64,000 bases of DNA from contig OZ020514.1 in assembly GCA_963971425.1 (NCBI GenBank), positions 41,577,158 through 41,641,157 of the forward strand, written 5' to 3'. This document shows positions 1,441-43,609 of this stretch, in pieces (the first letter of the stretch is position 1; the number at the start of each line of letters is the position of its first letter). The position numbers and the translations under genes were made by a program. The DNA is from Bryoerythrophyllum caledonicum (Eukaryota > Streptophyta > Bryopsida > Pottiales > Pottiaceae). Below the pieces are notes generated by a model. It saw only the letters and a program-made list of their open reading frames with translations, did not search any database and was not told where the DNA came from.

Positions 1441-1460
1441 TAGATGCTCATGCTCCAGCA

Positions 1461-5839: not shown

Positions 5840-7110
5840 ATCCATCGGCGGGCCGCCGACAAAACAACATAAACTACAAGGGCATCTCTAATACGGAACT
5901 CAAAATCCGTCGGTTGGCCGTCGACGGTGATGATGTACATACCTCAACGTTGTCGCCATTTTGTCGGCGGGTGGGAATTACTCCACGGCTGATGGCTTGC
6001 GCTGAAACGCCTCTGCTAGCCTCCGACGGCCGTCGACTGGTGATGATCGGCGGATGGATCCAAACTCTAAGCTTAAAGCCGTAAGCGCGCTTAACTAATC
6101 GAGAATGCGAAATTAAGAAGAGCGGGATTAGAAATAACCAAAAATAGGAAGACGACAAGGTTTTGTACTCGGATCCGGTGGACCGTCGCACCCATTCGAT
6201 CTTCATAAGAAGGATGACGGACGGCCGAGACTTGATGCTCGAGTGCTAAGCCTGATCCAGGTATCAATTCCCAAGTGACATGCCATCTTAAAGTGTCGTC
6301 TCGGATATTAACATAGAAACTAGGGTTTTGGAGCCACGATACCTCGAATTGAAGTGACATGATAAATGTCGCCTCGGCTATCATTTTGCTTAGAGTATAG
6401 GGTCCTACACCTACGATATCACTTCGACTGATTTGATTTCATCTTGTCACCTCGTTTCATTTTGAATCTGCAAAATTTGGCGCGCTCACGATAGTCCTTG
6501 AGCTGGTGTCGTCGATCGTTTTTGGCGGCTAATTTCAAATTTGAAGTTCGCGCACGATAAAGTTCGCATGATGGTTAGGATATGAACTCAACCCGAAGAA
6601 CTCCCTAGTCATTATTGGACTTGCACGCCTCCTATTCAATGCTCTGCCTTCTCACGCTCGGAATTGGTATTCATTCTCTTAAACTCCTTTCGTCACGAGT
6701 CCATATATCTGGTCATGCACAAGTCCGTTATCACTGCTCCAGCCTGGGTCCCTTTTTTTATCTCACTCTTTCACCTGAATATGCTTGGTTATTCAGTGTC
6801 ATGTAACCGACAATAAATTATATTAGATTACTCATTAGAACTCATGTACTATTGACTATGTGCCCACCAATTTTGTTTTCTGTTCCAAAGTCCGTCGGCG
6901 GATGATAATATCCACTCCGCCGATGCTTGTCAAATCCTTCACATGGTAGACTTTACGTGTAACATTTAACCGTCGGCGGGCAGCCAACGGCAGTGTTTAT
7001 ATGACCCATTGCCGAGCAACTCTAAAGCTAATATAGGGATTGGTGTGGTTGTTGGTCTCGTTCATCAAGTTCGAATTTTTAGAGCCACCCTTGTCGGCGG
7101 GCGGCCAACG
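5840..7110 (+). promoter_or_regulatory. Upstream array of element-B palindromes
   Basis: Seven copies or near-copies of the motif around TCGGCGGGC/CCGCCGA precede the first B gene: about 5845, 5910, 5964, 6022, 6895, 6972 and 7094. Many retain both arms of the dyad. Neighbouring sequence is AT-rich and has no convincing gene. The motif is absent from the rest of the window except within B and fragment B' (33.5-34.5 kb). Confidence 0.55.
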
Positions 7111-7176
7111 AAATCATTGTTGCTGCCAAATTTCACTTATCCTTTGTCTCTAGCGATTTCATATTACTGCAACAGC

Positions 7177-10100
7177 ATGGATCCTGAACCCATGCTGTCG
7201 TTCATAAGGAACGGGAAGTCCGGAAGATGGAGTCCCCGGAGAGGTGTTGTTGTTGTTCTCACTCATTCCGGCCTCTACTTTGCTAAAAGGGCGATTGTCA
7301 AGAGAGTCGTTCTCAGGGACCCATGGATTATACGTATGAAGGTTATTGAAGTGTCCAATGCACTAGAGATGCCCATTCCATTTTCTGTGGATGGCATTTC
7401 CATTTTGCGAAACTGCGAAGGTCGGTCGATCAATTGGGAGGCCGCTGATATGAGGCCTTACGCTCACATTGATGAACTTACAGAGGAGCCTACGGAGAAA
7501 CCTTCCGTCGTAATCAAAGACCTCAAGCCCATCCAAGAGTTTCTAGACCTTCGCGACGGCATGGAGGTGGTCCTACTTGATGTCAGTGGCGATCACAGAC
7601 GTTGTGCAGGAGTTGGAGTTATCGACGAATGCTCATGGAGGGATATGTGGGAGGGATTTCTCATTCTTCACAGCTTCTTTCTGCTTGTCCGAGTTCAATC
7701 TATCAATCCCAAATACGTCGGCCATCCCGCATATAGCGAGATTCCCTCCATCGGCGCTCTCGGCAATTATGTGGGCTACCTAGTCCTATAGAGTGGCTAT
7801 CGGGTTTGTCCCTTTTCACTTGATGTCGACTCCGAAGATGTTTTGGGGGTTGACTCTACATTGACTGATACTGACATTGAAGCATCGGACGACGACAACC
7901 GTTCCGATAGGGTATATGAGGACAATAATAATCATGGGGCCAATTGTTACATGGAGGGATCCGAGTCGGACATCGAAATGGCCACTGGAAGTGACGAAGA
8001 TATCTCATCGGCGGGCAACCGACATAATAATTATCACTCTTCTGAGAATCCATCCGCCTTACTCGATGGTTTATGTGATCCGAAGTCGTTCCCAGACCGA
8101 CCACTATGGCGGAACAAGTACTGCCAGCTCCTAGATGAAAACTTTGCTTCTGTTGGATGTGCCATGATCCAAGTGTACTTGCCCCATGAGGCATGTGATT
8201 CATAAATTTTAGGAGACACTGATGTTGAGGTCCTCTTTGTCGCTGAGGACAAGGATCTTCAGGTGACAACAATGCATTGGCGCTTAACTCACACTCGCCT
8301 TGAAGGTGGTCCACTTCTTTCTGAGTGCCTTACATTCTGCTCAATGCATAGTCAAGTTGCTGGCAAGGATGACGGGCTTGAGGGTGAGCCTAAGGATCCT
8401 TACAGAGTTGTTCGTCGGAAGCTATTGCCGAAGGTCAATGTGTCGGTCTCCAAGTTTCGGCGCCTTCAGGACCCACATGAGTGTGGCCTTGTTAGCGCGA
8501 AAAGGTGTTGTAAGAAACGATGCTGCCAATTATTTTGTTGAAAAGACAGCCGAAAGATTCGAAGGAAGTGCTACGCCTCAAGCTTTGAACAACGACGTGA
8601 AACGGCCTATGCTGTTGCGGACCAGCTTCACCATATTCTTGGATTCCAAAAATTATACATCACCCTCATGGGTGTCGATGTTTGTGAAGTCGCTAGGTAC
8701 AACATTCACGGCGTGCCGAAGTCCGCATACTACAACTATAAATATGATTCAAAGATCGGTCGCGTAAATGGCAGCCATGGTAACACAGGCATTATGCGTC
8801 CCAAGCCTCACACTGTTCAGGCTCGTGGAACCATATCCAGCATTATCAACGACAGTGCGGACCAGATGCCAAATGAGTTCCGTGTCATCGGAAACAAGAG
8901 GGTCGCCGCATTGAAGGTCCTTCCGGCGGCCATGAATTGGAATCACTTACGTGACATGGCCAACTTTGTAAGTATTGTCTTCACTTTTGCCTATCGTTGT
9001 ATTTAGCGTTGTCTGTCTTGTTTGTCGCTTCAACGAGCTCCATCGGCGGCCCGTCGATGGAACTCATTCATTGCATATTGGGCTTACCTTTGATACCATT
9101 GTCTTTCTGTATTACTGAATAATCCTTGAAATTGTCCCATCTAGGTTAACGCCGAATGCAATGCCAAGCCGATTACGCAATCTGTGGTGAGTAACATGAA
9201 GAAGAGGTTCTTCAAGAATGTAGAAGTAAAGTCTGTGGGCAACAACTTCTCCAGGTGCACGAAGTGCGACTTCCTGGTCGAGTTTATCGCAAAATATCCT
9301 CGTGGGTCAGACGAGTGGCACGGACTCACGGATGACAGAATCATGCACCTAAACTACCAAAGGGCATGCAAAAATGTTTACTCCGGCTGGTCGGCTCAGT
9401 CTATTCACTACCCGTCTGAGTTCCTTTGCATAATTTATGACAAGATGGATACCTCCAAGACGGCCATTCCTAGAATGCAGAGGATTACCAAGGCCACCGC
9501 CAGGCTCGGTCAGATTCCGATTTCATGTACAGGCATGCTTACACATGGACACGGCTATGGTGCCTACGCTCATTACTCGACGTTGTTATGGTCGGGGGAC
9601 TCGAATTTCACCATCTCTTCACTCTGCCGTGTTCTAAGAGCATTAGATAGGCGCCTTGTGCAAGAGTCCAAGGAGCTATTCACCTGTCCACCCCTGAATC
9701 CTTTCTTTGATGCTCTACTTCATAGGAAGTCCACATGTTTGTCCTCGGTTCCAGAATTTAAAGGAGATCCGTTCCCTAATGCTCTTCCCGGTAGATCGCA
9801 AGTTCCGCTTCCTCGGAAGTTGTTTCTCCAGCTTGATAACTCCGCCAAGGATAACAAGAATCGGTTCTTCATGGCGTTTTGCTCGCTTCTTACAGCTAGT
9901 AATTTTTTCAAGGAGGTCACAGTGGGATTCTTGATTGTTGGCCACACTCATGAGGATATTGACGCACAATTTAGTTACCTTTTGAAACTCATCAAACGAA
10001 AGAATACTTACTGTTTGGTTGACTTCATGAAAACCTTCATGGACTCGCAGAAGACTGTCGCGTTCATTCCAAAACTTGTCCAAGAGGTTGCGGATTTTAA

Positions 10101-10277
10101 GAGTTATATTGCTGGATATCATCATGATGGTAGTAACAAGATTGAGGGACTTAGAGAGATGCACCTGTTCAAGTTTTACATGGAAGAGGAAGGAGATGAC
10201 GTTGGATGTCCGGTCATGAGATATAAGAAGTGTGCAACTGAGTCATCCCGGCTTCCTCCACGTAAACCATTCAAGGT
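7177..10277 (+). pseudogene. DUF7869-type protein of element B, with three stops and truncated C-terminus
   Basis: Reads in one frame from an ATG at 7177 (MDPEPMLSF) through an SH3/Tudor-like N-terminal segment (GMEVVLLDVSG), an acidic region and a Cys-rich patch, then the DUF7869 core. Core motifs, all shared with the intact protein at 29009-31840: GVDVC, HGNTG, a C-x2-C pair (CTKC), DKMD-x-SK, QLDN-x4-DNKNRF and VGHTHEDID. A 177-bp intron at 8968-9144 (GTAAGT to CTAG, phase 0) carries an element-B palindrome at 9041. In-frame stops: TAG 7789, TAA 8203, TGA 8539. The last exon seems to end at a CAAG/GTGG donor near 10277, where the homologue in D continues for about 250 more residues. Function is unproven; a DDE-type transposase is my inference. 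Confidence 0.75.
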
Positions 10278-10431
10278 GGAAAAACTTCTATTCCTATCTC
10301 CCTTCCGCTATCTCCACCTTCGTCGTCTACCTTCTCCGTCGGCGGCCTGCTGATGGACCTAAACGTTTTTGTTATAAGTTCATGTTCTCATTGAACGCAA
10401 GCAAGTGACTATACTTGGACTCCTTCAGGTA

Positions 10432-11469
10432 AGCTTGTCAAGATGTGGACCGTTGATCGACGAACCCAGACTCTTCAATCTTGAGAAGGCGGCGCGCGAA
10501 ATGTTCATCGTGTTCGGCTTTGATAAGTGCGGGGTTCCGATCTACTGCAACAAAGAGGGGCTCAAGGTTGTTGCAGAGAGGGTGTTGCGGGGTGAGGGGG
10601 ATGACAAGGAACTTTACGCCCCTTCAATCTTCATCAAAGACGACGAGTCCAATTTCGTGATTAAGGCTGAATATCGTTCGAAGAAGCTGGATTGCGCAGT
10701 CCACACCATCCGCTACCTTTTAGACACCTACGGTAGATTCACTCCCTCCGCCATGGATGAGAGATCCATCGTGCATGTTGGCATTCTCTTCAACCAGCCC
10801 AGAGCTCCACGGGACCGCCTGAGCGAGTTCCTAAAGGTAACCGGATTGACGAAGCCTCTCAGCCCACTCTATGACGACGCTGCCTCGGCCTCGGCTGAGA
10901 GTTGGGTTGAAGATGAATGCCATCCAAGCTTAGGGTTGTTCTCATCAATTTTGCAATCCACACTGGTGAAGGGCGACTCGAGTCTGACCGTCTTCAACAC
11001 TTGGGGTGGAGGCAACATGATTGCATTGGCCTTGGTAAGTCACCTCTCCTTCCTCTATTCATTTCTTCTTTCCTTCACAATCTCGTGTTCGTCGGCGGCC
11101 CGCCGATGAGACAGTATTCATATTGATCATTGACCAAGATTGTTTGCCCAACAGCGACACAAAGCGACGGTGATCGAATTTGTTTGTGAGGAGGCGGAGG
11201 TTGTTGTCGCGATGGCGCAAGTGCAGGCTATGTCCTTCCTACCGAGGAGAGGTCACCTGCTTGCGCTAACACTTCTAGCTGAGCCCGCGATGGAACCGAA
11301 GGAGGTGGTCACATTGACTGAAATCGACCAGGATTCAGAGAATGGGACCGAGATAGGCGAGGATGCGATGGACGACAGCCTATTCCTCCGCAACGTGCTG
11401 AACGATAGACTACTCACAACAACCGACTTAGGTGTTCGTCTCGATGAAGTACACATGATAAGGCCTTAG
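10432..11469 (+). pseudogene. Distal part of the conserved module shared by elements B, D and E
   Basis: Two exons, 10432-11034 and 11155-11469, joined in phase 0 across a 120-bp intron (GTAAGT to ACAG) that contains a perfect-looking element-B palindrome at 11089-11105. The translation matches the corresponding part of the D gene: REMFIVF-GFDKCGVPIY aligns with EFFRVF-IDVRSLFVSR, and SLTVFNTWGGG before the intron aligns with SVVQLFGGTK in D and TVIVNVGGGA in E. After the intron, HKATVIEFV aligns with KGAQVIEIV of E. The frame closes at TAG 11467; a Lys/Ser-rich open stretch continues in another frame to 11884. The upstream half of the module and the GQH domain are absent. The acceptor at 10431 places this exon directly behind the DUF7869 exon, so a fused transcript is possible. 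Confidence 0.65.
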
Positions 11470-11884
11470 AAGGGAGGAAAGGCACCAACTGTGGTGCGAC
11501 GTGAGGCCACAACGTGAATACTTCCGAAATCAGTGGAGGCCAGACTTCCTAGAGTTCTGCTCTAAAGGAGCCACCGCAAAAGAAGCAACGAGCCAGTCGC
11601 GAAATAAGGCACCGTCGCAAAATAATACATCCGAAGAAGGTGGAGTTTCCTCGGGGGTGTTGTCACCAAAGAGAAATTCCAAGAACAGCAAGGACGGGCG
11701 GTCTCAGAAGCGGTCGCCTCCGCCTCTGAAAAAGGGATTGCGAAAGGCAAAAAATGGGGGTAGTGCTGGTTCCACCCCAAGAGAACTCTCGATGTCCCCT
11801 GCCTCTGCGGATCATCCCAACATAGGGTTTTTGCCTACTGCTCCTCCTGTGAGGCAGGATACATGTAATACATCCGGAGGTTAG

Positions 11885-12430
11885 TCACGAGATAGTGCAC
11901 CTAGGAGATTTTTCTTGCAGTTTAGCACACTACCTTTCTAATAAATGTACTTTATCAAGTGAACACAAAGATCCTCTACTATGGTTGTTCTTCTGAGTTT
12001 GCAGTCTATTATCGGAATGTATTTTCATGTTCCACTTCTCTGTCTGCGTTGCAAACTTCAGTATTGTGATCTGGAATTCGGAGAATCCTGATAGGCATGC
12101 CCATGAAATGAAAACCGTTAAAGATGCATGTCCGAGCATAAGAAGGCTTTGTTATATTTTTGATCAGTCGTACTGCGACGTAGCGAGGTTTGGTGTTGGG
12201 GGTTAGAAACTCTACTTAAAGAGGTTGTCTACACTTTTCATGAGTCCCTCGGCGCTAAAAGGAAGGTGCTTGCAAAAACCATGTTATAATTCACGTCTGT
12301 ATAAATCTACAAAAATAAAGATGGTCTCCAACAACTTTCTGTGGTTCATATTCCAAATGTATGTTGTCATAATAATCAAAGTGTCCGGCGCACATGTTTG
12401 ATACTTATTATATCTGTGTCATCGACTGTT
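11885..12430. other. Non-coding linker inside element B
   Basis: About 550 bases with no ORF of note and no element-B palindrome. It joins the conserved module to the first HAD domain and probably represents degenerate linker exons or introns. Confidence 0.4.
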
Positions 12431-12444
12431 GCCTCCAGGTGCCC

Positions 12445-13100
12445 TACATTGTTGATGGGTCTCATGCGGGGGGAGATTCCATCGAGAAGCATCTTCAGGT
12501 GCCAACTGTGAAGGTCAATCAATACTTCCTTGTCCTTGGTGTAAACGGTCTGTTGTTCGCACAAAATATAGGCAAGGACGGAAAGTGGCATACCAAATTC
12601 AGGCCGAAGTAGGCAGAATTTATCAACTTCCGCGTGGATAACTTCACAGTTGTGCTTTAGAGTAGCGAAGTCAGCCAAAGCTCGCTGCTCAATTGGTAGC
12701 CCTCAGAGGCCACTACCCAGTTCTTAAAGTAGTGAAACACGTATACAATAATTCCTACTGTCATGTAGCTAAATAATTGGTAGGAATTTGGAAGGTTTAC
12801 CTCATGAGACTGTCGACCTTGTTTTTGAGCTAAAAGGCAATGTTAGGATATGGTGCAAATAGTCAGAACACCCTTTTGCTTCACGATTGTCCTTACAGGA
12901 ATGTCAAGAATAGTCCTCTGAATGCAATGCATCCGATGACATTCACCCTAGAATCAATGGAGTCGGACAAGAACGTCGTTCTTCCCAAGGTCGTTAAGTA
13001 CCATTCCGCTTTGTTAGAGTTAGGCTTGCCTATACCCGAATTTATTCGGAGGAATCCTAGCTTTGGATGCCCTCGACTCTCCCCCGGTGACCCTCAGTAG
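12445..13100 (+). pseudogene. First HAD/FCP1-like domain of element B, broken
   Basis: A degraded phosphatase-like domain in two frames. The N-terminal part (to about 12660) reads YFLVLGVNGLL, matching NIVLDLNGIL of the D domain; the nucleophile Asp of HAD enzymes is replaced here by Gly. FRPK then AEFINF matches the RPGCAEFL region. The C-terminal part (12870-13060) reads LLLHDCPYRNV then NAMHP, matching LLIDDSPEKNL then NAIHP of E. Stops at 12610 and 12657 and a frame change before 12840 show that it is inactive. The homology is faint but colinear with three other copies in the window. Confidence 0.55.
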
Positions 13101-13329
13101 AAGGACTTTGTTCTAGCGTACCCGAGCAGTAGGCGTCCTCCTTGTACTGTTGCATAGTAGTTTGGCGTTGGCGGGCAGCCGACGCCGAAATTGCCCAATT
13201 TTGCCAGGCTTTGACATTCATGTCTGTAACACCATTTTTCTTCAAAATAAAATTCCTCACAATAATCACAGTCTCCCTTGCACATGGCTTATCACTTATT
13301 GTTTGCATTTGAATCTACTTTTCTATTCA

Positions 13330-14050
13330 AGTGGACTATCTTGACAAGGAGATTGAAGAGCTGGTTCCGATTCCAAGAAACCCGATTATTATAATACTCG
13401 ATGACGGCTCACCGGAGAGACCGAGTCGTCACCTGATCGACGGCTCGCAGTCAACGGCTTCCCTCCCCAACATTTTATATCCACTACTTTGGTATAAAAG
13501 ATGACAATCGAGACTTTGCACCATCACCGCTGGAGAAGGTGGGCCCGAATGTGTCCACCATATTCTTGTCGAATCCGTCGCAGACGACGGTATCAACCAA
13601 GAAGGCGACAGTCAAGCATTTGCCTCTGACGGAGCTTGGCCTGGGGGGGTCGGAGTAGTCGGCAGGCCGCCAACCGCTACATCTACCCCATACCCGACTG
13701 CCAGCGTAAGCTCCGAAGTTGTTCCAAGGAACATTCATGTCGGTCCTTCAAGATACTACCTCGTCCTAGAAGTTAGAGGGCTTCTAATGGCTGAATGATA
13801 TGATTATCGGGGAAAAAATAAGAAGCCCCATTATCATCAAAAACCTAGGCCAGGTCTTCTTGAGTTCCTGACATTCTGCCAGTCCAACTTCGGATTGGCA
13901 TTCTGGTCCACCGAGAAATACGAGCCCATGAGCAGACACATGGGTTACCTGCGCAAGGTGTACCCTGACCTACGTAAGGACTTCCGAGAGATGGCCATTA
14001 ACACCATATTCGTTATAATGGGAGATTTCCATGATTTTGAAGATATATGA
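13330..14050 (+). pseudogene. Second HAD/FCP1-like domain of element B, N-terminal half
   Basis: Downstream of an intron-like stretch with an element-B palindrome (13166), a linker and then YYLVLEVRGLL (about 13750) begin a second HAD-like domain, continuing with RPGLLEFL and FGLAFWST, which correspond to RPGCAEFL and ITIWSLM of the D copy. The catalytic Asp positions read E-V-R, so no phosphatase activity is expected. A TGA interrupts it near 13796. The matching C-terminal half (motif IV region) is not found after 14050, so B seems truncated here. Tandem HAD domains also occur in E and in fragment B'. Confidence 0.5.
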
Positions 14051-14059
14051 TCTTTAAAG

Positions 14060-15400
14060 TATCAATATATATAGACAATTGTAGGTGCAAAGCATATCAA
14101 CAATGCACCAAGAATACTATATTTCATTACATGGATGGACCAGATTAGCCGAATGACCCAAAAAATGGTAACGCTAAAAGAAGCATGTACCATTATTCCA
14201 AGCTTTATTTAAAACTTCATGAAAAAAATCACAAACAACACTCATTCACCCCGAGGCAAAACACAATCGTCCTATCACTAATCAAATGGTCTACGGAGTT
14301 CCACCATAAGCTTCTATACGCGTCTTCAAAAAAGCCCTCTGACGTTGCCTTGTCCATGTTGCGCCATTCTCTTGCATTCATGGACTTTCTAGAAGACGCT
14401 GCAAACCCGCCTACGCACCTCGTCACTGTTTGATTTGGGCAGCGAGTGCTGGCGGGTGGGGGAAGGAGAGCATTTGCCTCTAGCAGCATCTCCTGACAAA
14501 GTTCGGGGACGGAGACATTTACCGAATGGTTCCTGCACAATAGGCGCCACACACAATCCAAAGAAATACACTTTAGGTCGAATACTGCTACACAACACAC
14601 ATGAAAATTTAATCATTGAGATCCATCCTAGCGAACATTAGGTCGGATGGAGCTAAAATGCAGAAGGAAAGATCCACAGAGCACATTTAACCCCCAACAA
14701 AAAAATAAGCTCAAATGAACCAAAACTACATTAGTGCAATGTAGCTCAACAACAAACCAAAATTGTCTAGGCCAAAACATCGCAATAGTGCAATAAATTG
14801 GAGGTCATCATAACACGCACCGCAAGCGAGCGTTGGGAAGTACCATCCCTTAAACCGTCGTAGAGAATACGCTTTGCTGGAGTACAATTATCCGGATTTA
14901 AAGGCGGGGACCCAGGAACTAAACGAGGCCACTGCGGCGAAGGCGAGTTGTTCCTATCATGAATTGGCTCCCACGCAATAGGGTTTACAACAACTCCGTC
15001 GTCCACTGCCATGATCGAATAATCCATGGTTGATTGCGCGGTTGCAGCAGAGCGCAACAAAAGCCCTTTACTCCGAAGAGAAAGGACGAACTCCTTTGGC
15101 CCTATCAAGGAATCCACGGACGCCCGACAGTCACAGTCCTGTAGAAATTTCAACCACGGCGACACTCACATACCTTAGAACAATAGATGAAAATTCCAAT
15201 CATTCAAAATAGCACGACATTCCATCAGCAGTAGATATCCAATTCCCACAACAAACAAAGCGGTGAAACATCTCAGTTTCATTTATAAAAAAAATATACA
15301 CAAAAAATGGTCCAACAAAATTTACAACATCGAGCTGCAGTCAATCGATATAGTTTAGCTCTATGCGACCTAAAGTGTAAAAGGCATCTAAGCGTTTCCA
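14060..15400 (-). other. Downstream flank of the D fusion gene with two unassigned minus-strand ORFs
   Basis: Minus-strand ORFs at 14767-15165 (132 aa) and 14229-14600 (123 aa) have no recognised domain. The first contains FVLSLRSKGLLL, faintly like the start of the second HAD domain of B, so it may be the eroded equivalent in D; this is weak. No D palindrome occurs here. The boundary between B and D lies somewhere near 14.06-14.2 kb. Confidence 0.3.
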
Positions 15401-15406
15401 ACGGCA

Positions 15407-16192
15407 TTAAGAGCGGAGATTCTGAAACGCTTGGATTGCGTTCCAGATACTCGCAGACTGACCACACGTCTTCTGATCATTATAAAACATCTCCTGGCCA
15501 GAGGGATGTTCGGCCCGGTACTGCGCTAGACCACCCGGAAAGTGATGAAGGTCAGAGAGATATGGCAGCAATTCCTCCAACAATACAGAATCGTCTCTCG
15601 TGCCAACATGTTTGTCCGACCATGATGGAAGAAGAAAGACGTTCTCCAGCAAATTGAGCATGTGTTTAATCCGGCTGTCGTCAATGACAAGCGTATTTGC
15701 CGGAGTATACTCACGACCCAACCTATTGAAGAGATGGCTCGATAAGGTCTTCAAGAAGATGTCCTTCTGAGTGCCAGATTCCTTCATGTAGATTGTTCTG
15801 CTACCGACTCTACGCTCGGGAACCCTATTGCAGCTCTCCTGACCAAAGACCCTGAGAGGGTACGAAGAACTATGATGAAAAAGATAATTACATATCTGAC
15901 GCGTTGTAGATTCCATCATCAAACTCCAGATCGTGATGGTGGCAATCTTAGACAACTTCGTAAGGAATTCAGCACAACCAGGGCGCACTCGAACTAGTTT
16001 AGGGCCTACTTCGGCCGGCAGCGAAGCCGAGTGAATGGACGGGATAGAGTCCCTGGATACTCTGGCCTGCCACGACGGCTCACACGTGCATAGAATCCCA
16101 TTGAGGTCTAGCACAATGTTCAACCACTTGCCCTCGATATCAGATTGGACTCTAGGTATTTCTTCTAGATTATTGGCATCATTTATAGATGC
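15407..16192 (-). CDS. HAD/FCP1-like phosphatase domain, terminal exon of the D fusion gene
   Basis: Last exon of the minus-strand gene, about 261 aa. Motif I reads VLDLNGILCTC: the nucleophile Asp is kept, but the usual second Asp of D-x-D is Asn, a variant I believe also occurs in plant FCP1-like proteins. ITIWSLMM is motif II-like, a Lys in the KESGTQKD region may be motif III, and LVIDDSRIKHML is motif IV. Length and order fit the NIF/FCP1 family of Ser/Thr phosphatases. Homologous domains occur at 12445-13100, 13330-14050, 32930-33295, 33686-34207, 42024-42706 and 42890-43160. Its role in a mobile element is unknown; it could act on chromatin or RNA polymerase II tails. It could also be translated from a separate transcript. 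Confidence 0.65.
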   Translation of the reverse strand, partial: ASINDANNLEEIPRVQSDIEGKWLNIVLDLNGILCTCEPSWQARVSRDSIPSIHSASLPAEVGPKLVRVRPGCAEFLTKLSKIATITIWSLMMESTTRQICNYLFHHSSSYPLRVFGQESCNRVPERRVGSRTIYMKESGTQKDIFLKTLSSHLFNRLGREYTPANTLVIDDSRIKHMLNLLENVFLLPSWSDKHVGTRDDSVLLEELLPYLSDLHHFPGGLAQYRAEHPSGQEMFYNDQKTCGQSASIWNAIQAFQNLRS

Positions 16193-21076: not shown

Positions 21077-21263
21077 CCTGTCCCTCTCAAATCTGCACAA
21101 ACACGAAACAGAGCAAAGATATTAGATTGCTCTAATGATCATCCGATTAGGACGGCGAGGTCACACATTAGCTCGACTCGAGCTAAAGTGTACCGATATT
21201 CAAGTGTGTGAGTAATACTCTACAACAAAATTTAGTCATTTAGAACGTTCTCTTAGACGCTTA

Positions 21264-21436: not shown

Positions 21437-21591
21437 GAGACTGCAATTACACCAATGTATCAATGTTGTATTCAAGTTTTAGCTTCATCTTTAGCTCGAC
21501 TTGAGCTAATGTGCTCATGCATGGAATGCATAGCTGAACACTTCTGACACTTGCAGTAATTACCCTAAACGACTTTCCTATACATTTCTAT

Positions 21592-24300: not shown

Positions 24301-24319
24301 ATTGTATAATTAAAAAATA

Positions 24320-27600: not shown

Positions 27601-27619
27601 AGAAGATATCACCTAAACC

Positions 27620-28330: not shown

Positions 28331-28339
28331 AATCGCGGA

Positions 28340-28860: not shown

Positions 28861-29008
28861 TTTAATGTCAATTCACTTGTATCAAATGTATTTTCAAGCG
28901 CCAGACTTTACCTCTTCATATGCTTCTTCATTGATGTCTATTCCTACAAGGTATTCACCTATTCTTATTTGGCAGGGTTATTTAATATTTACCTCATTGG
29001 AATGCAGA

Positions 29009-31840: not shown

Positions 31841-32930
31841 TGGACTTAGATCAATGGACTTTCCTTTTCCAAGATTTTGGATTCTGATGCGTAATACTTC
31901 ATGTAGTATGGTTAGATCCATTGGTGCTGAGATTATAGACATCTGTATTTGTTTACACTATGTATGACTATTATATGTGATGCCAATGATTGCTATGAAA
32001 TATTCTCTCCATTATTTTTGCGTATCGGTGATAATTTGCAGTATGTTTTATTTTCTTTTTAAAATAACAATATGATAAATTGCTTCCAATCTTGAAACCA
32101 ATAATACCAGTAATTGTCTTCATGGTGAATGATAGAAAGTAAATGTTGAGTCGCACTTTAGCTCTAGTGGAGTTAAAGTGTGAGCAAATCTTCTTATTTA
32201 GTTCATTGTACTTAGTAATGGTGCGCACTTTAGGTCAAGTGGAGCTAGAGTGTGTGGAATTGCCTTTTTGAGTTCATTGCACCTCTAAGTGATGGGGACA
32301 CTTTAGTTCGAAGAGAGGTAGTGTGTATGCAATTTTTTTCCCACTTCTGAGCACCATCATTTGAAACTCGTTATATATTTTTAGCTAATGTGTATTCCAC
32401 AAGGAGAATTGAAATTCTTTTAAATAAAAAAAGGCTCATCAAAATGTGTTTAGCTAATTCTCTTACAAGTGGATATTTGTCCGTCAATTAGCTCACTTTT
32501 AGCTAAATTGGAGCATGGTGTTTATCCGGGTTAATAGGATCGAGTGTGAATATTTAGCTATTCATATTCAATGAACACATGTGGTATAAAAGGAGTGTCA
32601 ACTAATGTGTTCTTCTTTTCAATATTATAGTTAGATTCATAATGCAATGTTATCCGTAGTACTTATTTTTCTAGGGGTTTTTGTAGAAAACATTACCTCC
32701 CAATTTAATGGAAACTCATATCCCTCCATATTGTAGAAATTAGATGTGCACTTTAGCTCTTATGATCTACATGTGTTAATTTGGGAGTTGCTAAATCTCC
32801 CAAATAACGAATATGGTGTTCATTGGGTTTTGTGATATATCTGCCTCTACGAATCCCAAAACAATGAAGCGCAACATGTTGCTGAAGCGGCTTGCTCGCC
32901 TTTTTTGAGATAGATGCTATCTTATCGAGC
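31841..32930. other. 3' flank of element D
   Basis: AT-rich, no genes. It includes the third locus of ~70-bp dyad repeats and the likely right limit of D. The last ~150 bases lead into fragment B'. Confidence 0.4.
32145..32460. repeat. ~70-bp dyad repeat, locus 3
   Basis: Units at about 32152, 32223 and 32289, e.g. CACTTTAGCTCTAGTGGAG then TTAAAGTGTG, followed by a flank similar to that of locus 2 (CACTTCT...CATCATTTGAAACTC). Same strand orientation as locus 2. Confidence 0.6.
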
Positions 32931-33499: not shown

Positions 33500-34503
33500 C
33501 TTGTAGTTTTCTCCGTCGGCGGCCCACCGACGTATTTAACTTCTCACTTCCACCCGTAGTTTGCATCATGACAATGTTTCTTTAACATTTTCCAGGGAAC
33601 ATCCTTCCATTTCACATGCCTGCACGCTCTCCCATCACCGATTCAAAAATGTATTGTACTATGCGTCAATGGTCTTCTTTGCTATGTGGACCCTTGCAAG
33701 CCGATATCTTCTGATTTCCCTCATGGGAATGTTGTCCGGAGGCCGGGCCTAAAGAAACTATTCGAAATGTTACTTCCCTGCTTCAACATCGGGTTGTGGT
33801 CAACGATGCCTCTAAACAAGTTAAAGCCGCTCTTGTTGCACATTCTTCCGGAAGGAGTCTTTCAATGTTTGTCGTTTGTTTATAGCAGAAGTGACTTAGC
33901 TGATAGTTCCAAGTTTCCTTGGAGCTACAAAACGCCGTCCACGCTCTTTAAGAAGAAGCAATCTAGACATGTTTGCAAGCTCTACCAAGTACTGTTTGTC
34001 GACGTTGATCCAAGATTGCTCCGACGTACCCCGGACTGGATGTGCTATATCCCCTGGCTGTTCCGAGGTCATTTGACCTCTCCAACCGAAGACGGAGTAA
34101 TCCCGAATGTGGCGACTGACATCATTCCGCTCATCTTCTGGCTCCATAGATTTTCATCCGTCCCTGAATATATGACGCAGGTTGAACGCTCGGGGCAGGC
34201 GCATTAGGCGGTTACGCAGGCGCGCAAATATGGGCGAGCCATAGTCAGATGGTCGGAAGTTGAATGGTAGGTCTTTCTCCATCGGCGGCCCGCCGACTGT
34301 CGTTCGTTGAGCATATTACTTTCAAACTGTCCGATGTCATACTGACAATCCCTAGCACTTTCTATATCACATGTTTTTTACACTCACACTGTTCTAGAAC
34401 TTATCTCGTTGGGTAGCCTAAGAGGTTTTTTTAGTACAATTAGTGATTTGGAAAAGACGTTGTTTTCTCTACCAGGTCTATTTTATTAGTCGGCGGCCAG
34501 CGG
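33500..34503. repeat. Element-B type palindromes in fragment B'
   Basis: GTCGGCGGCCCACCGAC near 33513, TCGGCGGCCCGCCGAC near 34282, and GTCGGCGGCCAGCGGAC near 34488. They flank the second HAD-like ORF, as in element B, and identify B' as a B-family copy. Confidence 0.7.
33686..34207 (+). pseudogene. Fragment B': second HAD-like domain (173-aa ORF)
   Basis: Open from 33686; the real exon probably starts at an acceptor shortly before (TTTTCCAG at about 33590). RRPGLKKLFEML then IGLWSTM matches RPGLLEFL then LAFWST of B. LFVDVDPRLLR is the motif IV equivalent (DV for DD). VIPNVATDIIPL aligns with VTPNIGTALLPF of the second HAD domain in E. Catalytic residues are not preserved, so a structural or binding role, or plain decay, is likely. 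No promoter or upstream modules are present, hence a truncated copy. Confidence 0.6.
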
Positions 34504-34509
34504 ACATTG

Positions 34510-35129
34510 TACTTATCATCCTATCAATTTATGTGTTCATGTTCTTTGGCTGCATCTTCGTTGTGTTGCCACTACCGTTTGATCTCTTCGACGCCATACT
34601 CAGAACCCATGTTCCTCTCGCATATCTTTTATCTTCCGCGATTACTTTTGATAATATAGACTTTGGATTTCATTATTACCGTAGAAAAGGTTTAAGCAAA
34701 TTGATGCACTTTGTTGCTCTTGTCTTTGATTGGCTGTCAGCCGACAATCATGTACTGTGATTTTTCAAATAATATTAACGTCATTCTTTAAACTTTCGCT
34801 TCCGGTATATATGATCAGGAATTTGATAACAACAGCCTAAACCATTGGGCGCCACTGGAATCTACCACTGTGGTAGATTTTCCGAACTGCATCAACGCTC
34901 TGGGAACATTTTCGGCCTAAACCCTCTCTAGAATGGGTGAAGCCCATTTTCATGAGTCAGTTGTCCGCGGATGAAATGTTCTCGTCACTCTTATTTATGG
35001 ATTTTTTTTCCACATTCAGTTAAATATCCGTTAAATGAGAAGATCTCTAAGTTTCATAAGCAAAAAAAGATGTCTTTTTGACTTCGGCTAGTATGCTATT
35101 TTTCACTGAAGACAAGAATTTATTTTGAC
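34510..35129. other. Non-coding stretch after fragment B'
   Basis: A 105-aa hydrophobic ORF (34443-34760) has no support from conservation. A near-perfect single palindrome TCTACCACTGTGGTAGA lies at 34861-34877. Nothing else recognised. Confidence 0.4.
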
Positions 35130-35515
35130 AATACGAAAGGCATTTGTTTTTACTTGATAGTATTGAATCTTTTTTTTTACTTGATAGTATTGAATTTTTT
35201 TTTACAATACGAAAGGCATTTTTTTTACTTGATAGTATTGAATTTTTTTTTACAATACGAAAGGCATTTTTTTTACTTGATAGTATTGAATATTTTTTTT
35301 ACAATACGAAAGGCATTTTTTTTACTTGATAGTATTGAATTTTTTTTTACAATACGAAAGGCATTTTTTTTACTTGATAGTATTGAATTTTTTTTTACGA
35401 TACGAAAGGCAAGTTTTTTACTTGATAGTATTGAATTTTTTTTTACAATACGAAAGGCATTTTTTTTACTTGATAGTATTGAATATTTTTTTTTCACTTT
35501 TTTTACTTGATAGTA
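35130..35515. repeat. 48-nt minisatellite, seven to eight units
   Basis: Unit: ACAATACGAAAGGCA, T-run, ACTTGATAGTATTGAA, T-run. Unit starts at about 35204, 35252, 35301, 35349, 35397 and 35445 give a 48-nt period (one 49). GTATTG and CAATAC form a short dyad across the T-run. Because 48 is divisible by three, both strands appear open, which creates spurious ORFs. Confidence 0.9.
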
Positions 35516-35807
35516 ATAATTTTTTCCCGCGTGTGTCACGATGTCTTTCCTGTTTCCTACTTCCTCTCCTTCACTGTCACTTTGTCTCTCCCCTCTCTCC
35601 TGTCTCTCTCTCGTCTCTCTCACTCTCTCAATCCTGTTTTTGCTGTAGGTTTCCATGTTCTCCAAGCTCACAACTTTGGATTAGGTTAATTTTACTGTGG
35701 GCAATTCCGTGGTCAATTTTTGAGTGTAGTTTAGTGGCGCTTTTGCTAGTCTAAGTGTAATTTTGTGGCGCTTTTGCAAGCCGGAGTGTCTTTGTGAAGG
35801 CAGGGTC

Positions 35808-35984
35808 TGTCGAAGCAAAACTGGATGGTTTTTGGTTTAGCCTCCAGTTGCGTGCGATCTCAGTGGGTGCGACTTCAGCAACCGCGTCGTTACGAAAGGC
35901 TGTAGCGATTGAATTCCTTTGAGGGTAAGGTAATTAACTAGTATTTTATTTCACTCTGAAGCACCATCCAATTTTGCTTCGACA
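35808..35984. mobile_element. 177-bp foldback element with 22-bp terminal inverted repeats
   Basis: TGTCGAAGCAAAACTGGATG (with GT following) at the left end and its inverse at 35963-35984 match at 21 of 22 positions. No coding capacity and no obvious target-site duplication. A non-autonomous MITE-like element is the simplest reading. Confidence 0.65.
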
Positions 35985-36172
35985 ACTCAAAAGCATAGGT
36001 AATGCATTTAGATTTGCGACACTTTGAAATCCACACAGTGGTCAATACTATGACAATTGTTGCTTGTTTATCTCAGTTTGAACTAGTTGTTGCATTGGTA
36101 TGTCAAATTGGCTTCTTGTAACAGTGGTTCTGATCTTATTTCTCTTACGCGCAGTGCTTCATAGATAGAAGA

Positions 36173-39100
36173 ATGGCGAGCATGGTGCTAGACCTGATTG
36201 AGCGGCCAGAATGGCTAAATTCGTAAGTTTCCATAACCTTTCGATCAAGATGAAATATGATCTAGCATGCAAAGTTTTTTAGAATTATCTACAAAAGTAT
36301 CAATATGCTAAGCAATGCTGCAATTTCATTTCATTCGATTGAATTCCAGCACGTTGGTATGAATGTACATGTTATGGTAGAATTAGAGATACGGTACACT
36401 GTACGGATGACCCTTTCATACGGTCATCCACTGTAATCGACGGATCCTTTGATCTAAATGGATCGATGGATCCTCCGATTTCATGGATTGCTCGATCCTC
36501 TGATCCTCTGAGATCGATGGATCCACCGATCATTTGGAACTGATGGACTCATCGATCCTCTAAGATCGATGGATCCTCCGATCTTCTAGAAATGATGGTC
36601 TCTCCGATCATCTAGGATTGATGGATCCTTCAATCCCCTTGGATCGATGGATCCTCCGATACCCCTAGTTCGTCATATACAATGACATGAGATTGATTGA
36701 TCCTTCGGTCTCTCGCATATGAATCCTCTTGCCCCATTCAGCACTATTTTTGGATCGCTGGATCCCTTGATCGTTGCACATCGACGAGTCAATTTATCGT
36801 TCTAGTTTTCAGTGGTGGATGGTGAGTGATAAAGTAGATTTTTCGGACTGATCGAGAGATCCCTCGATTCCGCTTGGCAGTCTCATTGAACGATGTCACG
36901 GTGTCTTGATATTTTCATTGGTGATTATACGGATCTTAATCTTATCATCCATGAAATCCGACTTTGTCAACCTGTACCTCCTTGTCATCAACGAGTTCGT
37001 GACAAGTTCCGGATGTTCGAGCGGTATGGCCTTGTAATGAATTCCGCTACTTTGAGCCCCAAGTATTGCACGACGGTGAAGGATTTCGGATTCCTAATCG
37101 GGCATAGGGGACCCAATGATCGATCTATTGAGATTGGGTGGGCCGAGTTGCGGGCCCGGTGCAAGGCGGCCAACAAGAGTAGAAAGAAGACTACTCCTTC
37201 CACATCCCCAAAGAGTCGAAAGAGGCCATCATTGACTATTACTGCAACGCAAGGGGAACCTTCTAAGAAGAAGCCGCAACGAAAGAAGTCAGATCCGAAG
37301 GAGGAGGAGATGACATTAGCAAAAGTTGTGTAGTTGTCACACACAACGGTGGCTAAGTACTCTCTGAAGGACCTTCAATAAGTTAGAGAGCTGTACAAGA
37401 GGGAATTTGGGATCCTCCATATATTTGGCTGGCGTCCATACAAGGTTGACGATGCCGGTTCTAACAGGGTAGTGGATATATCTCACCTTCACAGAGCACT
37501 GGACAGTGTGGTGTTGTATTGTCCACTCGATCCGCATCGAGTTACTCAACTCGTTGACCAGAAGAGGACGATGCCTTCCTTCCAGGCATCATTGCAGCAT
37601 GTATATGTGATGCCGCTGCGGGGACCTTCACGGCCCGACGACTCTGATTTGGCAGTGGCGGATTTTTTTTTGGAGAAACCCAAGAAAGAGGACATCAATG
37701 CGGATACGCATTTCTACATAATTGGTGGCCAACATTGTGTAGCGGCACACAAATTTCTCATTGAAGAGGGAACTCTCAATCCTGGAGACGCATGGGATGC
37801 TAGTAGCTTTTGCGTCACAATTGTGTGGACAACACCCGACAAATTTTCTACCCTCATTTACTACACGAGGGTTCTGAACCAGGACCTCGTTGGGAATCGA
37901 AGCGAAGGTAATTATCTTAGACACCTTGAAACTACAAAGAAGAGCTGGATTGATGTTGAAAGGCCCAAGCCGTCTATTCGTGGCGCACCAAACACCGTTC
38001 AATTCAAGGTAAGTCGTCTCATTTCTCTTCATGGCTGGAATATTGGATCACTCTTGATCAAAGGATATTTTGATCCCAGTTCTCTGTTTTGGATTCTGAG
38101 GCTTTATTTCTGTGTAGACGTGGGTGGAGAAACTTGGCGCGATATTTGCAGGTGCAGATAAGAAGCTCAAAGTGGAACAACACGGTGGTCAGCCTAAACT
38201 TCCTCTTCTATACGTGTCCAACGCCCTCTTTGGGATGTAGAAGAGTATCCAGGATAGCTGGATTGAAGGACTGATTCCCAACTCGTTTGAGAAGTTTTCA
38301 AGTTTTCCAAGCACTGACAAGGACGATGACGACGAGGAAGACGATGCGGGAAGTTTGGCAAAGAAGAAGAAGTTGGCTCTCGAGCTCTAAAGCAACACGG
38401 TTTGCCTCCAATATACTCAATGTGGGATAGCGAGATTGAGAAAATGGCCAGGATGGTGATTGCAAAGGCGATCTCGATTAAATCAACAAAATTGCTCAAG
38501 AAGCCAGCCATTCTTCCCTGACTCCGCAACCAGTGTTTCGTCGAGAAGAAGTTCCGGCTTATCAAGAATGAGATGATGCACTACGTCATAAAGAAGCCCC
38601 TGCCAGCGAAGACAGTCAAGAAGTTATATTCGGAGGAGGAGTACATTGAGCTCGCCAGTGAGCTGAAGGTATCCGACAAGATACTCCAAACGTGGCATGA
38701 TAGACTTCTGAAGGACGATGGCGGATATCAGTTCTTCAAGAAGCGGGGGACTAACTTGAACCCCTCTAGCAAGTCGGAGGACATCGCCCCGTTGTTGAAG
38801 GCCATATTTGATCAACAGCGGACACTTAGCGCCGCTACTTCAGTTGACGTGGTCGTCGAGCCGTCTTCAGGGCCCACGTTCGTAAGCCAATACAAAGTGA
38901 AGCAGATGGTGAAGAAATCAGGAGATGTTGAGAAGATCCTTAGAAAAGATACCGTCCTCAAGTGGATTAAATTGGATGCAACGGTTGTGTTTGTCTACTA
39001 CTTCGTCAATCGCGAGACAGGAGAAGTTCGATGGAGTATTACAAATCAAGTGAACTGAACTCTGGGTGCTATGGAGTGGAAAGATTCACAGAGGTTCAGG

Positions 39101-40227
39101 AGGGCTCAGAATCCTGGGGTGTTTATTACTGACCGGGATGGAATGGTGGAGTTGGCAAATGTGGTATCGGGGAGGGGCAAGCCGATTGTGCAAACACCGA
39201 TCTGGGATTTAACCTCCACGATGTATATCACGTCAGGGCCACATGGATTTATAACGCCTCCAACTCCTGAGCCCACCTTAGGCTTGTTCTTCAACTTCCT
39301 CTATGGTCACACTCCTGACACCAATACGGAAATCGACTTCTTGTCATTTTTTGGAAATGACATGCCATACCAGCATATGATATCCGCATCGGATTTTAAG
39401 GATGCTCTCACACAATGGGCACAAAAAGGCAAGGCCAATTTTAATATCCATGCGGTTAACCAACTAATTGGCACACTTGGGCCGGCCAACACTGTCATTG
39501 TCAACGTTGGTGGGGGGGCTTGTGTGACCTGGGTTGGCCTGATAATATCATCGGAGGATCCTTCGATCTCATCTCCTTCCCCTTATATTTCGAAGCAATT
39601 TTCTAATTCATATGTTCTTTGCACACTTGCATCTCATTCGTGGTCTGGATTTTCTGATCGCAGTCGAAAGGCGCACAGGTCATCGAGATCGTCCATTCCC
39701 TGGACAATGAGAGAGATGCCCTGCGTAGAGCTCTTGAAATATGGGACTCTCGATTGGTTCTTAACCTTGTTGTTCCTCCACCACCTTCATGGGCTTCGTA
39801 GAAGGAGAAAATTCCGACGAAAAAGAAAGAGAGACACGTGAGAATGACAACGCGGCAGCAAGAGGCGAGAAGTAAGAGGACTCTTGACTTTGATGCCCCA
39901 AATGCAAGGACGGCCAGTGATGACGTATCTGACAAAGATGAAGGCCGCCGAAGAGGCTCTGACTCGGGGCCGGTCGCGACGTATGTGCCATCAGAGTCCG
40001 AGGAGGAGCATGGCGGGGAGGAGCGCGAGGAAAAGAAGATTGATGAGCATGACTCGGACATGGACTCTGTTGAGTCGCCGGAAGAATATGGAGGCAAGGA
40101 TCATGGGGGCCGAGAACATGGGGGCCAGGACGAGGTGAAAAACACTCAGATTCTGCAAGAGGCAAGAGAAGATGGAGAGGATGAAGATGAACAAGCGCTT
40201 CTCATGCGCCATGGAAGGGCTCGCTAG
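36173..40227 (+). pseudogene. Element-E fusion gene, proximal part: GQH ParB-like and conserved modules, broken
   Basis: Likely exon 1 has ATG 36173 (MASMVLDLIERPE) and donor at 36222 (GTAAGT). Exon 2 runs from about 36877 to 38008; the next exon starts at 38118 (phase 0). The GQH module reads FYIIGGQHCVAAH near 37710, followed by FCVTIVW and YYTRVLN, matching D. The conserved module follows to 39534, ending TVIVNVGGGA. An intron 39535-39663 with an E palindrome precedes exon 39664-40227 (QVIEIVHSLDNERDA, then acidic repeats). Lesions include TAG 37331, TAA about 37379, TAG 38238, TAA about 38388, a frameshift, TGA 38519, TGA 39056 and TAG about 39799. The TAG near 40227 overlaps the expected donor (CGCTAG/GT). 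Confidence 0.7.
36425..36885. promoter_or_regulatory. Dense array of element-E palindromes in intron 1
   Basis: At least ten copies of GATCGATGGATCCTCCGATC and variants spaced about 25-60 nt, within the proposed first intron. Some copies are full dyads, others have one arm changed (GATCCTTCGATC, GATCCCTCGAT). Confidence 0.8.
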
Positions 40228-40434
40228 GTCAACAACGAAGGAGACAATGATGCTATTTCCAGTGTGCAAACCACTAACATTGTATGATACAATGACTACC
40301 TCCTAACTTTGTCTGAACCAGACATAAAACAATTTTTTGGATGTTGTAGATGATTTTTGTAATGGACGGTAACCTCTTGATGTCTATTTCTTGGTATTCT
40401 ATGTTTTCATTCCCGATATCCCTCCTTTTGCAGG

Positions 40435-42706
40435 CATTTCAAGGTGAAGATGATCGCCGCATGCGCGCGTCCTCTTCAGATCCTCCGGTAATGATTCACA
40501 TATCACTACTTCTCAAATCAGTTAATTGGATCGGAGGATCCGTCGATCTCTTTCATTGGGATCTTCTTTCTTGATATATTTAGTCCGCCAGTGAGTCGTG
40601 ATTTGGTCCTCAGTTAGAGAGTATCATCGAAGGATCCTTCGATCTCCGTGTGTCTCACCTACGATGCATGTTTTAATCAGGTTGCCATCGCGGTTAATAG
40701 GCCATATGTTTTGCCCGATCCAGAGTTGTTTCGACTAGATCCCCACTATCGTCCAACTTTATTGTTTAACGACGGATTGGCGTTTGTAAATCCCGACTAG
40801 GACAACGAACTTACTAATCGTTACTCATGGGCGCAGCTTCCGGTTTCCGAATACCATACCCCTGGATCCCTCCAATCTGGGCTCGCCACTCTAGCTTCGG
40901 CGGAGTATCCCAACATTGTCCACGTCTCTCCAAAGCGAGATATCCTGCAGGTCCACCATGAAGACGAGGGCCTAAGGAGGTCGAAGAGAAGGACAAGGAG
41001 AAGGTAGAGAGGGAGGAGGATGAGCCGGAGGTGGATGTCCTTGAAGATGATGTAAGGAGAAGAGCAGAAGCTGATGAGCGAAGAGAGATTGAGGAGGAGC
41101 AGTTGGAACAGGAGGAAGCGGAGTGGGTTGAGAGGCCTTGGTGCTCCCCGTTGCCAACCCGGATTGAGCCGGAGGTGGATGACCTTGAGGAGGATGTAAG
41201 AAGAAGAACCGAAGTTAATGAGCGAAGGAAAATTGAGGAGGAGCAGTTGGAACAAGAGGAAGCAGAGTGGGCTGAGAGACCTTGGTGCTCCCCGTTGCCA
41301 ACCCGGATTGAGCCAGAGGTGGATGACCTCAAGGAGGATGTAAGAAGAAGAACCGAAGTTGATTAGTGAAGGAAAATTGACGAGGAGCAGTTGGAAGAGG
41401 AGGAAGCGAAGTGGATTGAGAGGCCTTGGTGCTCACCCAAGCCAACAGTGACTAATTTTGGCAACAAGCGGGGTTCTCAAACTAGAATTACTTGCAAGAT
41501 TGTACGAAATCCAATTCCACCTAGCAATGTTGAGCCTTCGACATCCGGCCCTGTAGCAATGGAGTTGGATGTAGTTGAATCCCAGCCTTCTTCTAGCCAG
41601 GCACTGGAGTCTGTTTCTGACCCTCCGCAAAACATAGCAGAGTCATTGGCCGCAGCAACTTTGGCAAATCTGGTTGATATGTTGCCAATTCCAGTTTCTC
41701 AAGGTCTTCACCAAGCAGAAACAGCTCCTACGCTTGTTGATGCAAACGAGAAAGAGGTTCATCATGGCATATTCCAAGATGCTAGCAAAGATCTTCTAGC
41801 CTACAACCCTTCTAGATTTATTCCAAGGTCGTCTGTAGCTGATGTTGGTGGAATGGGTGACTCATCCGTTCCTCCTATTGGTTCAACATCCTCTACAGAA
41901 GGTGAGTTTCATGTTCGTTCTTCTACTTCACTGTCTTTAGTTCCTGGTATGTATATGACTTGCTCAAAGGATCCTCCGATCGCCATGCGCCTCACTCGTG
42001 CTTACATATTTGCTTAACTGCAGGAGTAGTACAAAGCGGTACTCGTCCTGCATCCCCCGGCGATTTGAAGGTAAGGCATCCGAGGTACATTGTTGTCCTC
42101 GACTTCAATGGAATTTTTATTCATAGGACTTCTCCACCGCACAGTAGTATTCCTAGACCCGACTGTTGTCTCTTTCTGGAATGGTTGCACAAAATTGCTA
42201 ATATTGTGATAAGGAGCTGTGCGATGAAGACAAATGTCGATAGCATGTTAGTAGATGCCCTGAGGAACTCTCTCTTGAAGCCAGCTGACCTTTTAGTTCT
42301 GTCGCAAGTTGATACTACAATGTCAACCTTTCCTAAAAAGGAGAATCCATCCAAGCGATACATGCTGAAGGACCTCAGGAAACTCGCTTGGCTTCATGAT
42401 CACATGGACATTGATCTCACGTTGCTCATAGACGACAGTCCGGAGAAGAACCTCCTCAATGGCGAGTTCAATGCTATACATCCTCGTCCTTGGACTGATG
42501 ATTTGAAGGACAAGTTTCTCGCTACACACCTGAAGCCTTGGCTGACGAAAATGTTTTTGTCACGCATCCATGTAGTAGAGTTTGTTAAGAACAATCCCCT
42601 CCGTGAATGTCACGATGGTCGTACGTTAAGGACGACTGAGCTTTCTAGAAATATTATAACAGGGTGTTCTCGGACGTACGATCCCTCAATCCCAAAATTT
42701 CAATGA
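40435..42706 (+). pseudogene. Element-E fusion gene, distal part: linker exons and first HAD-like domain
   Basis: Exons: 40435-40488 (AFQGEDDRRM), about 40681 onward (VAIAVNRPYV, with a TAG near 40798 and a frameshift near 40990), to 41902, and 42024-42706. The introns at 40489-40680 (two E palindromes) and 41903-42023 (one) are GT-AG. The linker includes a 48-aa acidic tandem repeat. The HAD exon reads VVLDFNGIFIH (motif I with D-F-N), IANIVIRSC (motif II region) and LLIDDSPEKNL (motif IV), ending FQ-stop at 42706. The HAD exon itself is open, 227 codons. It corresponds to 15407-16192 of element D and to 12445-13100 of B. Confidence 0.65.
41031..41440 (+). repeat. 144-nt coding tandem repeat (48 aa), three units
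   Basis: Units begin near 41091, 41235 and 41379, exactly 144 nt apart. The encoded unit is Glu/Arg-rich, with EEEQLEQEEAEW and RPWCSPLPTRIEPEVDD. The third unit carries TAG at 41364 and TGA at 41367 just before it, closing the frame. A predicted helical, charged spacer in the linker of the E protein. Confidence 0.85.
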
Positions 42707-42889
42707 CACTTCAGTCTCATCGATGACGTAAATATTTTTTTATTTTTTGAAGATATTTTTGTAGCCTTTAAGGATGTTCCGTTCATTTACAAAATGACCA
42801 CCATGTTTATCTCCGTTGTTTTATTTCCTAACTTGCCCCCTTTAATTTCTTAGGGCCGGAACAAAAAAATTCTTAGGGCATTTTTATCC

Positions 42890-43160
42890 TTTCTGTGACA
42901 AGGTCCTCCGGAGACTATCAATTGATCGGAAAACTAGGACTTCTTGTCTCCCTGACAGAGTACTGATGGTTGATGACGAGCCAATGCGGCATGTCTTCAA
43001 CGAAGACTTTGCTTGCTACTTTCCAAAGCCATGGCATGGTGAAATGGCCCTTCCCAATTCCGGCAACGTTACACCTAACATTGGAACGGCCTTGCTTCCG
43101 TTCATACTTCCCCTGCGAGCTTCTAGCTCAGTGAAGGCATATCTTTGTGCACATTAGATG
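42890..43160 (+). pseudogene. Second HAD-like domain of element E, C-terminal half only
   Basis: VLMVDDEPMRHVFNED (motif IV, both Asp kept) then VTPNIGTALLPF, homologous to LFVDVDPRLLR and VIPNVATDIIPL of B'. Ends at TAG 43156. The N-terminal half is not visible between 42707 and 42890, so this copy is deleted or very degraded. Confidence 0.5.
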
Positions 43161-43609
43161 GATGGAAAGTTTAGACGAAGACTGCTTGAACCATGGCACT
43201 TTGAGCGAGTGTGGCGTACTTTATAAATGGTTCCTCGATTAAATAGGTACTCCCTCCATCTTTCTTATCAGTACTTGTCATTGAGTTATTTATATGAATA
43301 AAGCATCAACCGATTTTCATCTTATTCTTCCTATCTACTTGAGTGTATAACAGTCGGGAGATCCCTCGATGTAACTTGTATTACTACAAACGATTTTTTG
43401 ACCACATCCCTCATCAGAGGCATTGCTTCTCATTGAACTTCAATTGCAGTTAATTGATGCAAATATTCTATTGCACCGGATTAATTGGAGGATCTCTCGG
43501 TCCACCCACTTACTCATAAAATGTGCCAAAGTCCATGATTCATCTCAAAGTCCGGATTTACTTAAATGTGGCATCGTTATAAAAAGCCCACATTTGAATT
43601 GTATGTGTA

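Follow-up and report, generated by a model that had tools for sequence, protein, structure and literature searches.

The 64-kb window analysed here (contig C1, positions 41577158-41641157, of the moss Bryoerythrophyllum caledonicum; "the window" means this whole stretch) holds three large transposons or their relics, referred to as D, B and E, each of which carries its own short palindrome. When sites were counted in both orientations with up to three mismatches, 28 D palindromes were found at 16693-32158 (10 of them exact), 13 B palindromes at 5844-13658 and 33515-34489, and eight E palindromes at 36462-41963; for each word, the mean of five dinucleotide-model shuffles was 0. At this threshold, none of the words had a site in either other element or elsewhere in the window. 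Every site thus lies inside its own element, where chance alone predicts about 0, which bears out the proposal of an earlier, sequence-only reading that each element has a palindrome of its own. A de novo palindrome scan of the window gave 49 palindromes versus 8 in each of three shuffles, D sites up to 31 bp long making up most of the strongest ones. The D word is TTTAGCTCGASTCGAGCTAAA, and the palindrome stretches to 27-31 bp at many sites. Because the B element of the window is decayed, the B consensus given earlier is nowhere matched exactly there; other B copies do contain exact matches. The E word given earlier was not the family consensus, which is ATCGAnGGATCCnYCGAT when 129 sites are pooled.

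Element D is a complete transposon of 18,821 bp (14000..32820), delimited by the points at which homology between copies ends, by terminal inverted repeats (TIRs; AACACCATATTCGTTAT, at 14000-14016 and 32804-32820, from copy comparison) and by the target-site duplication CATT at 13996..13999 and 32821..32824. Duplications of 4 bp flank four of the five D copies for which both ends were seen (CATT, CATC, CCTA and TAAT), the fifth being mismatched; the right end of a sixth copy was not found. The DUF7869 protein is encoded on the forward strand at 29009..31840 (Pfam PF25273, E=1.4e-40, with homologues and a structure model), and its nearest named relatives are from the mosses Ceratodon and Physcomitrium. 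In the model, the core (401-618) resembles DDE integrases, the N-terminus is Tudor-like and the C-terminus BAH/chromo-like, all with modest scores. On the reverse strand, the first exon of the GQH gene (19640..21076, 3' end judged by eye) is followed by a NIF-type phosphatase frame (15410..16261; PF03031, E=2.2e-16). One array of D sites lies upstream of the DUF7869 gene (28342..28650, spacing about 47 bp) and another upstream of the GQH gene (21991..22375, about 52 bp), with single sites near the latter at 21168, 21491 and 21850. Two palindromes (sites 19598 and 19503; 19503..19616) are found in the first GQH intron and three (18017, 17932 and 17807; 17807..18035) in the second, the GT...AG bounds being set by eye. 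Variant sites occur at 24336, 24405, 26076 and 26145 (span 24336..26163), in the central noncoding region, and at 32158. Those at 24336, 24405, 26076 and 32158 make up a second class, kept between copies, in which the outer arms are TTAGCTC...GAGCTAA or nearly so and the middle is altered. Telomere-like CCTAAA repeats are present at 27626-27708, inside the element.

The left part of element B (5844..13674) contains 10 B palindromes and an exon-split DUF7869 gene, with an exon frame at 9145..10350 on the forward strand (PF25273, E=4.1e-41) and, by eye, a palindrome in the intron beside this exon (9042..9058). The right part, B' (33515..34505), has three B palindromes and the remains of a NIF phosphatase (33572-34204; E=0.006, below the profile cut-off). 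Since D sits inside B with its target duplication on both sides, B and B' are most simply explained as two parts of a single element into which D inserted. Element E is a truncated relic (35078..43455) with an array of E sites (36436..36668) upstream of its GQH gene, a GQH-domain exon frame (37382..38158, forward strand; profile A2, E=2e-6) and two forward NIF phosphatase frames, at 41906-42703 (PF03031, E=6.3e-11) and at 42846-43154 (by similarity to the B frame). A complete E copy on contig C2 (L031, L019, L032) measures about 17.1 kb by eye, with the TIR ATGCCAYATTTAAGTAAATCTRGACTTT and the duplication ATTC, and five other E copies share its right end to within 3 bp. The complete E also has a divergent DUF7869 gene. 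D and complete E share a common plan, namely a DUF7869 gene and a divergent GQH gene followed by a NIF-type phosphatase; both genes have arrays or groups of sites upstream of them, and introns and flanks hold additional sites. NIF-type phosphatases usually carry the motif DxDG; those of D, B and E show DLNG, CVNG and DFNG, respectively, and may therefore lack normal catalysis. At its left, the E relic has a 48-bp tandem repeat (35171-35493) that recurs in other E copies, and three 144-bp repeats (41021-41452) lie within an acidic coding region of E.

The words follow the transposase clades, as is seen in the B family. There were 104 matches to the B DUF7869 exon in the 437-Mb genome (894 contigs), and 20 loci of 1.35 kb each were taken across the identity range, blind to the motif. 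A B-type palindrome (up to four mismatches) was present in the intron before the exon in all 20, at a position homologous to site 9042 of the window. Two B words were distinguished at homologous positions in sister transposase clades, GTCGGC-G-GSC-C-GCCGAC (G..C) and GTCGGC-T-GSC-A-GCCGAC (T..A). In the clade of at least 80% identity, G..C arms were found in 9/10 loci at the intron site and again in 9/10 at a second site, which lies about 1.1 kb farther upstream; in the clade of 70-77% identity, T..A arms were found at the intron site in 8/10, and the upstream site, visible in 6/10, was T..A in all six. None of the 20 loci had the arm pair of the other clade. A DUF7869 tree splits the two groups (11 and 9 rows, window B included) at support 96/93 and 96/95; L043 is absent from it because no coding segment was recognised there. 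In 3 kb downstream within one T..A element, five of seven sites (up to four mismatches) were T..A and none G..C. On C1 below 22.73 Mb, the exact T..A word lay within 10 kb of four of five loci of its own clade and of none of eight loci of the other clade or three D loci. Such matched changes of both arms within a family are as expected if a symmetric dimer reads the site.

For the E family, 125 of 3583 candidates were scored. On C1-C5, the E word was found within 15 kb of 11/13 loci of the E clade (at least 83% identity) versus 1/75 loci at 69-82% identity, and near 1.4% of random points on C1. A relative at 76% identity (L054) has the word ATCGTAGGATCTTACGAT instead, repeated upstream of the probable start codon. 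On C1, exact ATCGTAGGATCTTACGAT occurred within 5 kb of eight of the 32 loci at 69-75% identity and of none of the 10 E-clade, 27 intermediate, 55 B and 12 D loci. C1 (65 Mb), the longest contig seen, holds many of the E words and DUF7869 matches that were listed, and may be a repeat-rich or a sex chromosome.

Over the whole genome, the D word was found at 7738 sites with at most one mismatch (reversed control 0), the E word gave 196 forward and 228 reverse matches with at most two mismatches (control 5 and 4), ATCGTAGGATCTTACGAT gave 627 and 613 with at most one (control 0 and 0), and the exact T..A word was present at 428 sites versus 0. In the fetched loci, D sites were present in D loci and absent from E and B loci, and E sites were present in E loci and absent from D and B loci, a pattern that is biased if taken alone because the D and E loci were picked by motif. 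Two loci were apparent exceptions: L030, where the site is the window's own B' site, and L023, where a B-like site lies about 1.4 kb from a DUF7869 gene of the B family. At a locus outside this genome (L001), where the transposase is 76% identical, three D sites lie upstream of the gene, degenerate D sites only were seen downstream and none inside it. Neither of the two outcomes that the sequence-only reading had named as refuting it was observed: where tested, the words are uncommon outside these elements and follow the transposase phylogeny. The placement in promoters and first introns would also suit sites for a host transcription factor, with the elements captured by different host regulators. 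This is improbable, since, where tested, the words hardly occur outside the elements and their matched two-arm changes follow the element clades; from a conserved host factor, such change along a single clade would not be expected.

It had also been claimed that the arrays lie near 5' ends, which is so for D, with two arrays, and for E, with one in the window; in the window B the sites are dispersed. The tandem periods of the arrays are 47, 52 and 26 bp. The further claim that introns carry copies and exons none holds by coordinate comparison for the profile-aligned coding segments and is unproven in B, where the ends of open frames for which there is no splice model coincide in part with sites 10338 and 11091. 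In the C2 copy of E, none of the 25 E sites (up to four mismatches) falls inside DUF7869- or GQH-aligned segments by coordinates, and no D or B site was found across 25 kb. The NIF-aligned part of E was seen in the window only, where site 41963 precedes it.

Conservation between D copies bears on whether the palindromes are functionless repeats able to form hairpins, which slippage and gene conversion have spread within each family and which have been homogenised there. In two diverged copies with noncoding identities of 0.85 and 0.82, isolated sites without their centre base were 0.94 and 0.92 identical, a value equalled by random noncoding 19-mers in 1 and 0 of 2000 draws; identity of the centre base over all D sites was 0.51. 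The isolated D sites are selectively conserved, with the centre base drifting freely. The arrays are tandem, as such repeats would be, and in one copy the array sites are less stable than the background (0.906 vs 0.962). Against this stand the isolated intron and flank sites, which, centre base excepted, exceed the noncoding background in both diverged copies, the joint change of both arms, and the absence of sites from profile-aligned coding segments, which homogenisation leaves unexplained. A lack of function is improbable.

The explanation that we favour, and regard on balance as probable, is that each large moss transposon family has a private palindromic recognition site, which an element-encoded protein binds as a dimer, thereby marking the element. 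The binder is most likely GQH, the first candidate, possibly acting together with the DUF7869 transposase, the second. Residues 297-425 of GQH are predicted to adopt a ParB/sulfiredoxin-type fold, and residues 9-171 are weakly PH-like in the model; no DNA-binding helix-turn-helix was identified in GQH, the later exons not having been searched. The protein would bind as a symmetric dimer and load at the arrays, the sites recurring in introns, in noncoding DNA of the flanks and in the promoters of the two divergent genes. Once bound, it would mark the whole element and so regulate transcription or shield it from silencing, and protein and site would drift together until each clade had its own palindrome. 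By analogy with VANC (PMC5735166) and VirB (PMC10770331), as described in parts of these sources, we infer that binding may lead to anti-silencing. A more specific, ParB/parS-like version is offered tentatively: a ParB-fold protein would load at the clade's palindromes, spread and mark the element as self, which may act against host silencing or for mobilisation, and splitting of such protein-site pairs would drive the radiation of the family.

Several results weigh against a private site read by GQH. At the Box II position, which is GxxR in ParB (PMC12704722, in the portion used), GQH has GQHS, with serine in 20/20 aligned sequences and arginine in 0/20, so that nucleotide-driven clamping by GQH is doubtful. 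The B relic yielded no GQH-like gene at E values up to 0.1, and 3 kb of one T..A element yielded none that was significant; B has its own site nevertheless, and GQH may not bind there. The phylogeny tests rest on DUF7869 trees, not on GQH trees, and the cut-off that defines the E clade was chosen by us. Over all contigs, among the matches listed, the E word was within 15 kb of 14/22 and within 30 kb of 17/22 E-clade loci. One of the five T..A loci on C1 below 22.73 Mb lacked its own word within 10 kb, and one of 20 E-query loci had the T..A word. Exact ATCGTAGGATCTTACGAT was absent within 5 kb from 24 of the 32 C1 loci at 69-75% identity and from all 19 loci in the 76-78% band, although L054 stands at 76%; only 8/38 ATCGTAGGATCTTACGAT clusters had a listed gene within 15 kb, and 1/55 B loci lay within 15 kb of the word. 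Finally, three near-identical D copies showed no excess conservation (1075, 1102 and 737 of 2000 draws reached the isolated-site value), as they have diverged too little.

Alternatively, the DUF7869 transposase itself could bind the palindromes, as internal or subterminal sites for transposition or autoregulation, with GQH otherwise employed. DUF7869 is common to D, B and complete E, the motif classes follow its clades, and B has sites where GQH is undetected. The densest arrays, however, are upstream of both genes, with single sites in introns, and not at the element ends, and the ParB-like fold of GQH is that of palindrome binders; we regard binding by DUF7869 in place of GQH as rather unlikely. 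The co-evolution of a DNA-binding protein with its site, suggested by the sequence-only reading, is partly supported, in that the words track the transposase clades and a candidate binder, GQH, exists with a predicted ParB-type fold.

That reading had compared these elements to VANC proteins and their motifs in VANDAL elements. The analogy of logic is good; the moss elements are not VANDALs, because they have 4-bp duplications, a DUF7869 transposase and palindromic sites. VANDALs are MULE-type elements, which make target duplications of about 9 bp. Among 20 window frames scanned no MULE domain was found, and the duplications are of 4 bp in four of the five D copies. In the parts of PMC5735166 used, VANDALs have a short family-private motif in noncoding DNA, often tandem upstream of genes and in introns, that changes with the element protein; the moss elements likewise have family-private, noncoding-dense motifs that change with an element protein. 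The VANC21 motif of Arabidopsis, YAGTATTAY, is non-palindromic and arrayed in one orientation (PMC5735166), whereas the moss elements have 17-31-bp palindromes, DUF7869, a 4-bp duplication and a ParB-like candidate binder.

Target duplications of 4 bp are known for Sola1 and in print for Sola2, and the moss elements combine such duplications with TIRs. In the giant Sola-1 element of Ectocarpus, Sola1-1_Ec32, which is about 20 kb long, a ParB-like protein gene lies on the strand opposite the transposase (PMC12477816), and size and arrangement are thus similar to those of the moss elements, in so far as that source was used. Its ParB-like protein is fused to a DNA methyltransferase, unlike that of D, where none was found in five frames scanned with Pfam; the moss elements add a NIF phosphatase, and the stem "palindrom" is absent from the main text of that paper. 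ParB-parS and KorB-OB resemble D in combining a ParB-fold protein with repeated palindromic sites, and KorB half-sites are TTTAGC...GCTAAA as in the D word (PMC11790492, in part). The gap between the half-sites measures 1 bp in OB and 9 bp in D, so that the likeness may be due to chance; the GxxR motif is not kept in GQH, and no ParA domain was found among the frames scanned with Pfam. VirB, a bacterial ParB-type protein, is an anti-silencer acting from dedicated sites (PMC10770331, in part), as is proposed for GQH in moss. Searches of openly licensed PMC papers found no description of families of palindromic sites associated with such elements. On strong comparative evidence, the combination of features appears to be new and its components of known kinds.

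The natural site variants now available number five (D, E, both B types and ATCGTAGGATCTTACGAT), and the genome-wide counts of four of these run from hundreds to thousands. Together with a short list of candidate binders, they make self-only recognition by transposon families directly testable. If GQH is the binder, ParB-type DNA recognition would extend to transposon self-recognition in land plants, and VANC-like co-evolution of protein and site would have arisen independently in another transposon class.

Other repeats surround the three elements. The relic of a hAT-type transposon, with DUF659 and the hAT dimerisation domain, lies at 166-4621 and is followed by GC-rich tandem repeats at 5119-5462. 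Remains of a Copia-like retroelement were recognised by eye at 55515-60019, with a reverse-transcriptase-like frame at 58911-59237, and a stretch near 56325-56936 was also found inserted in an E copy (L020).

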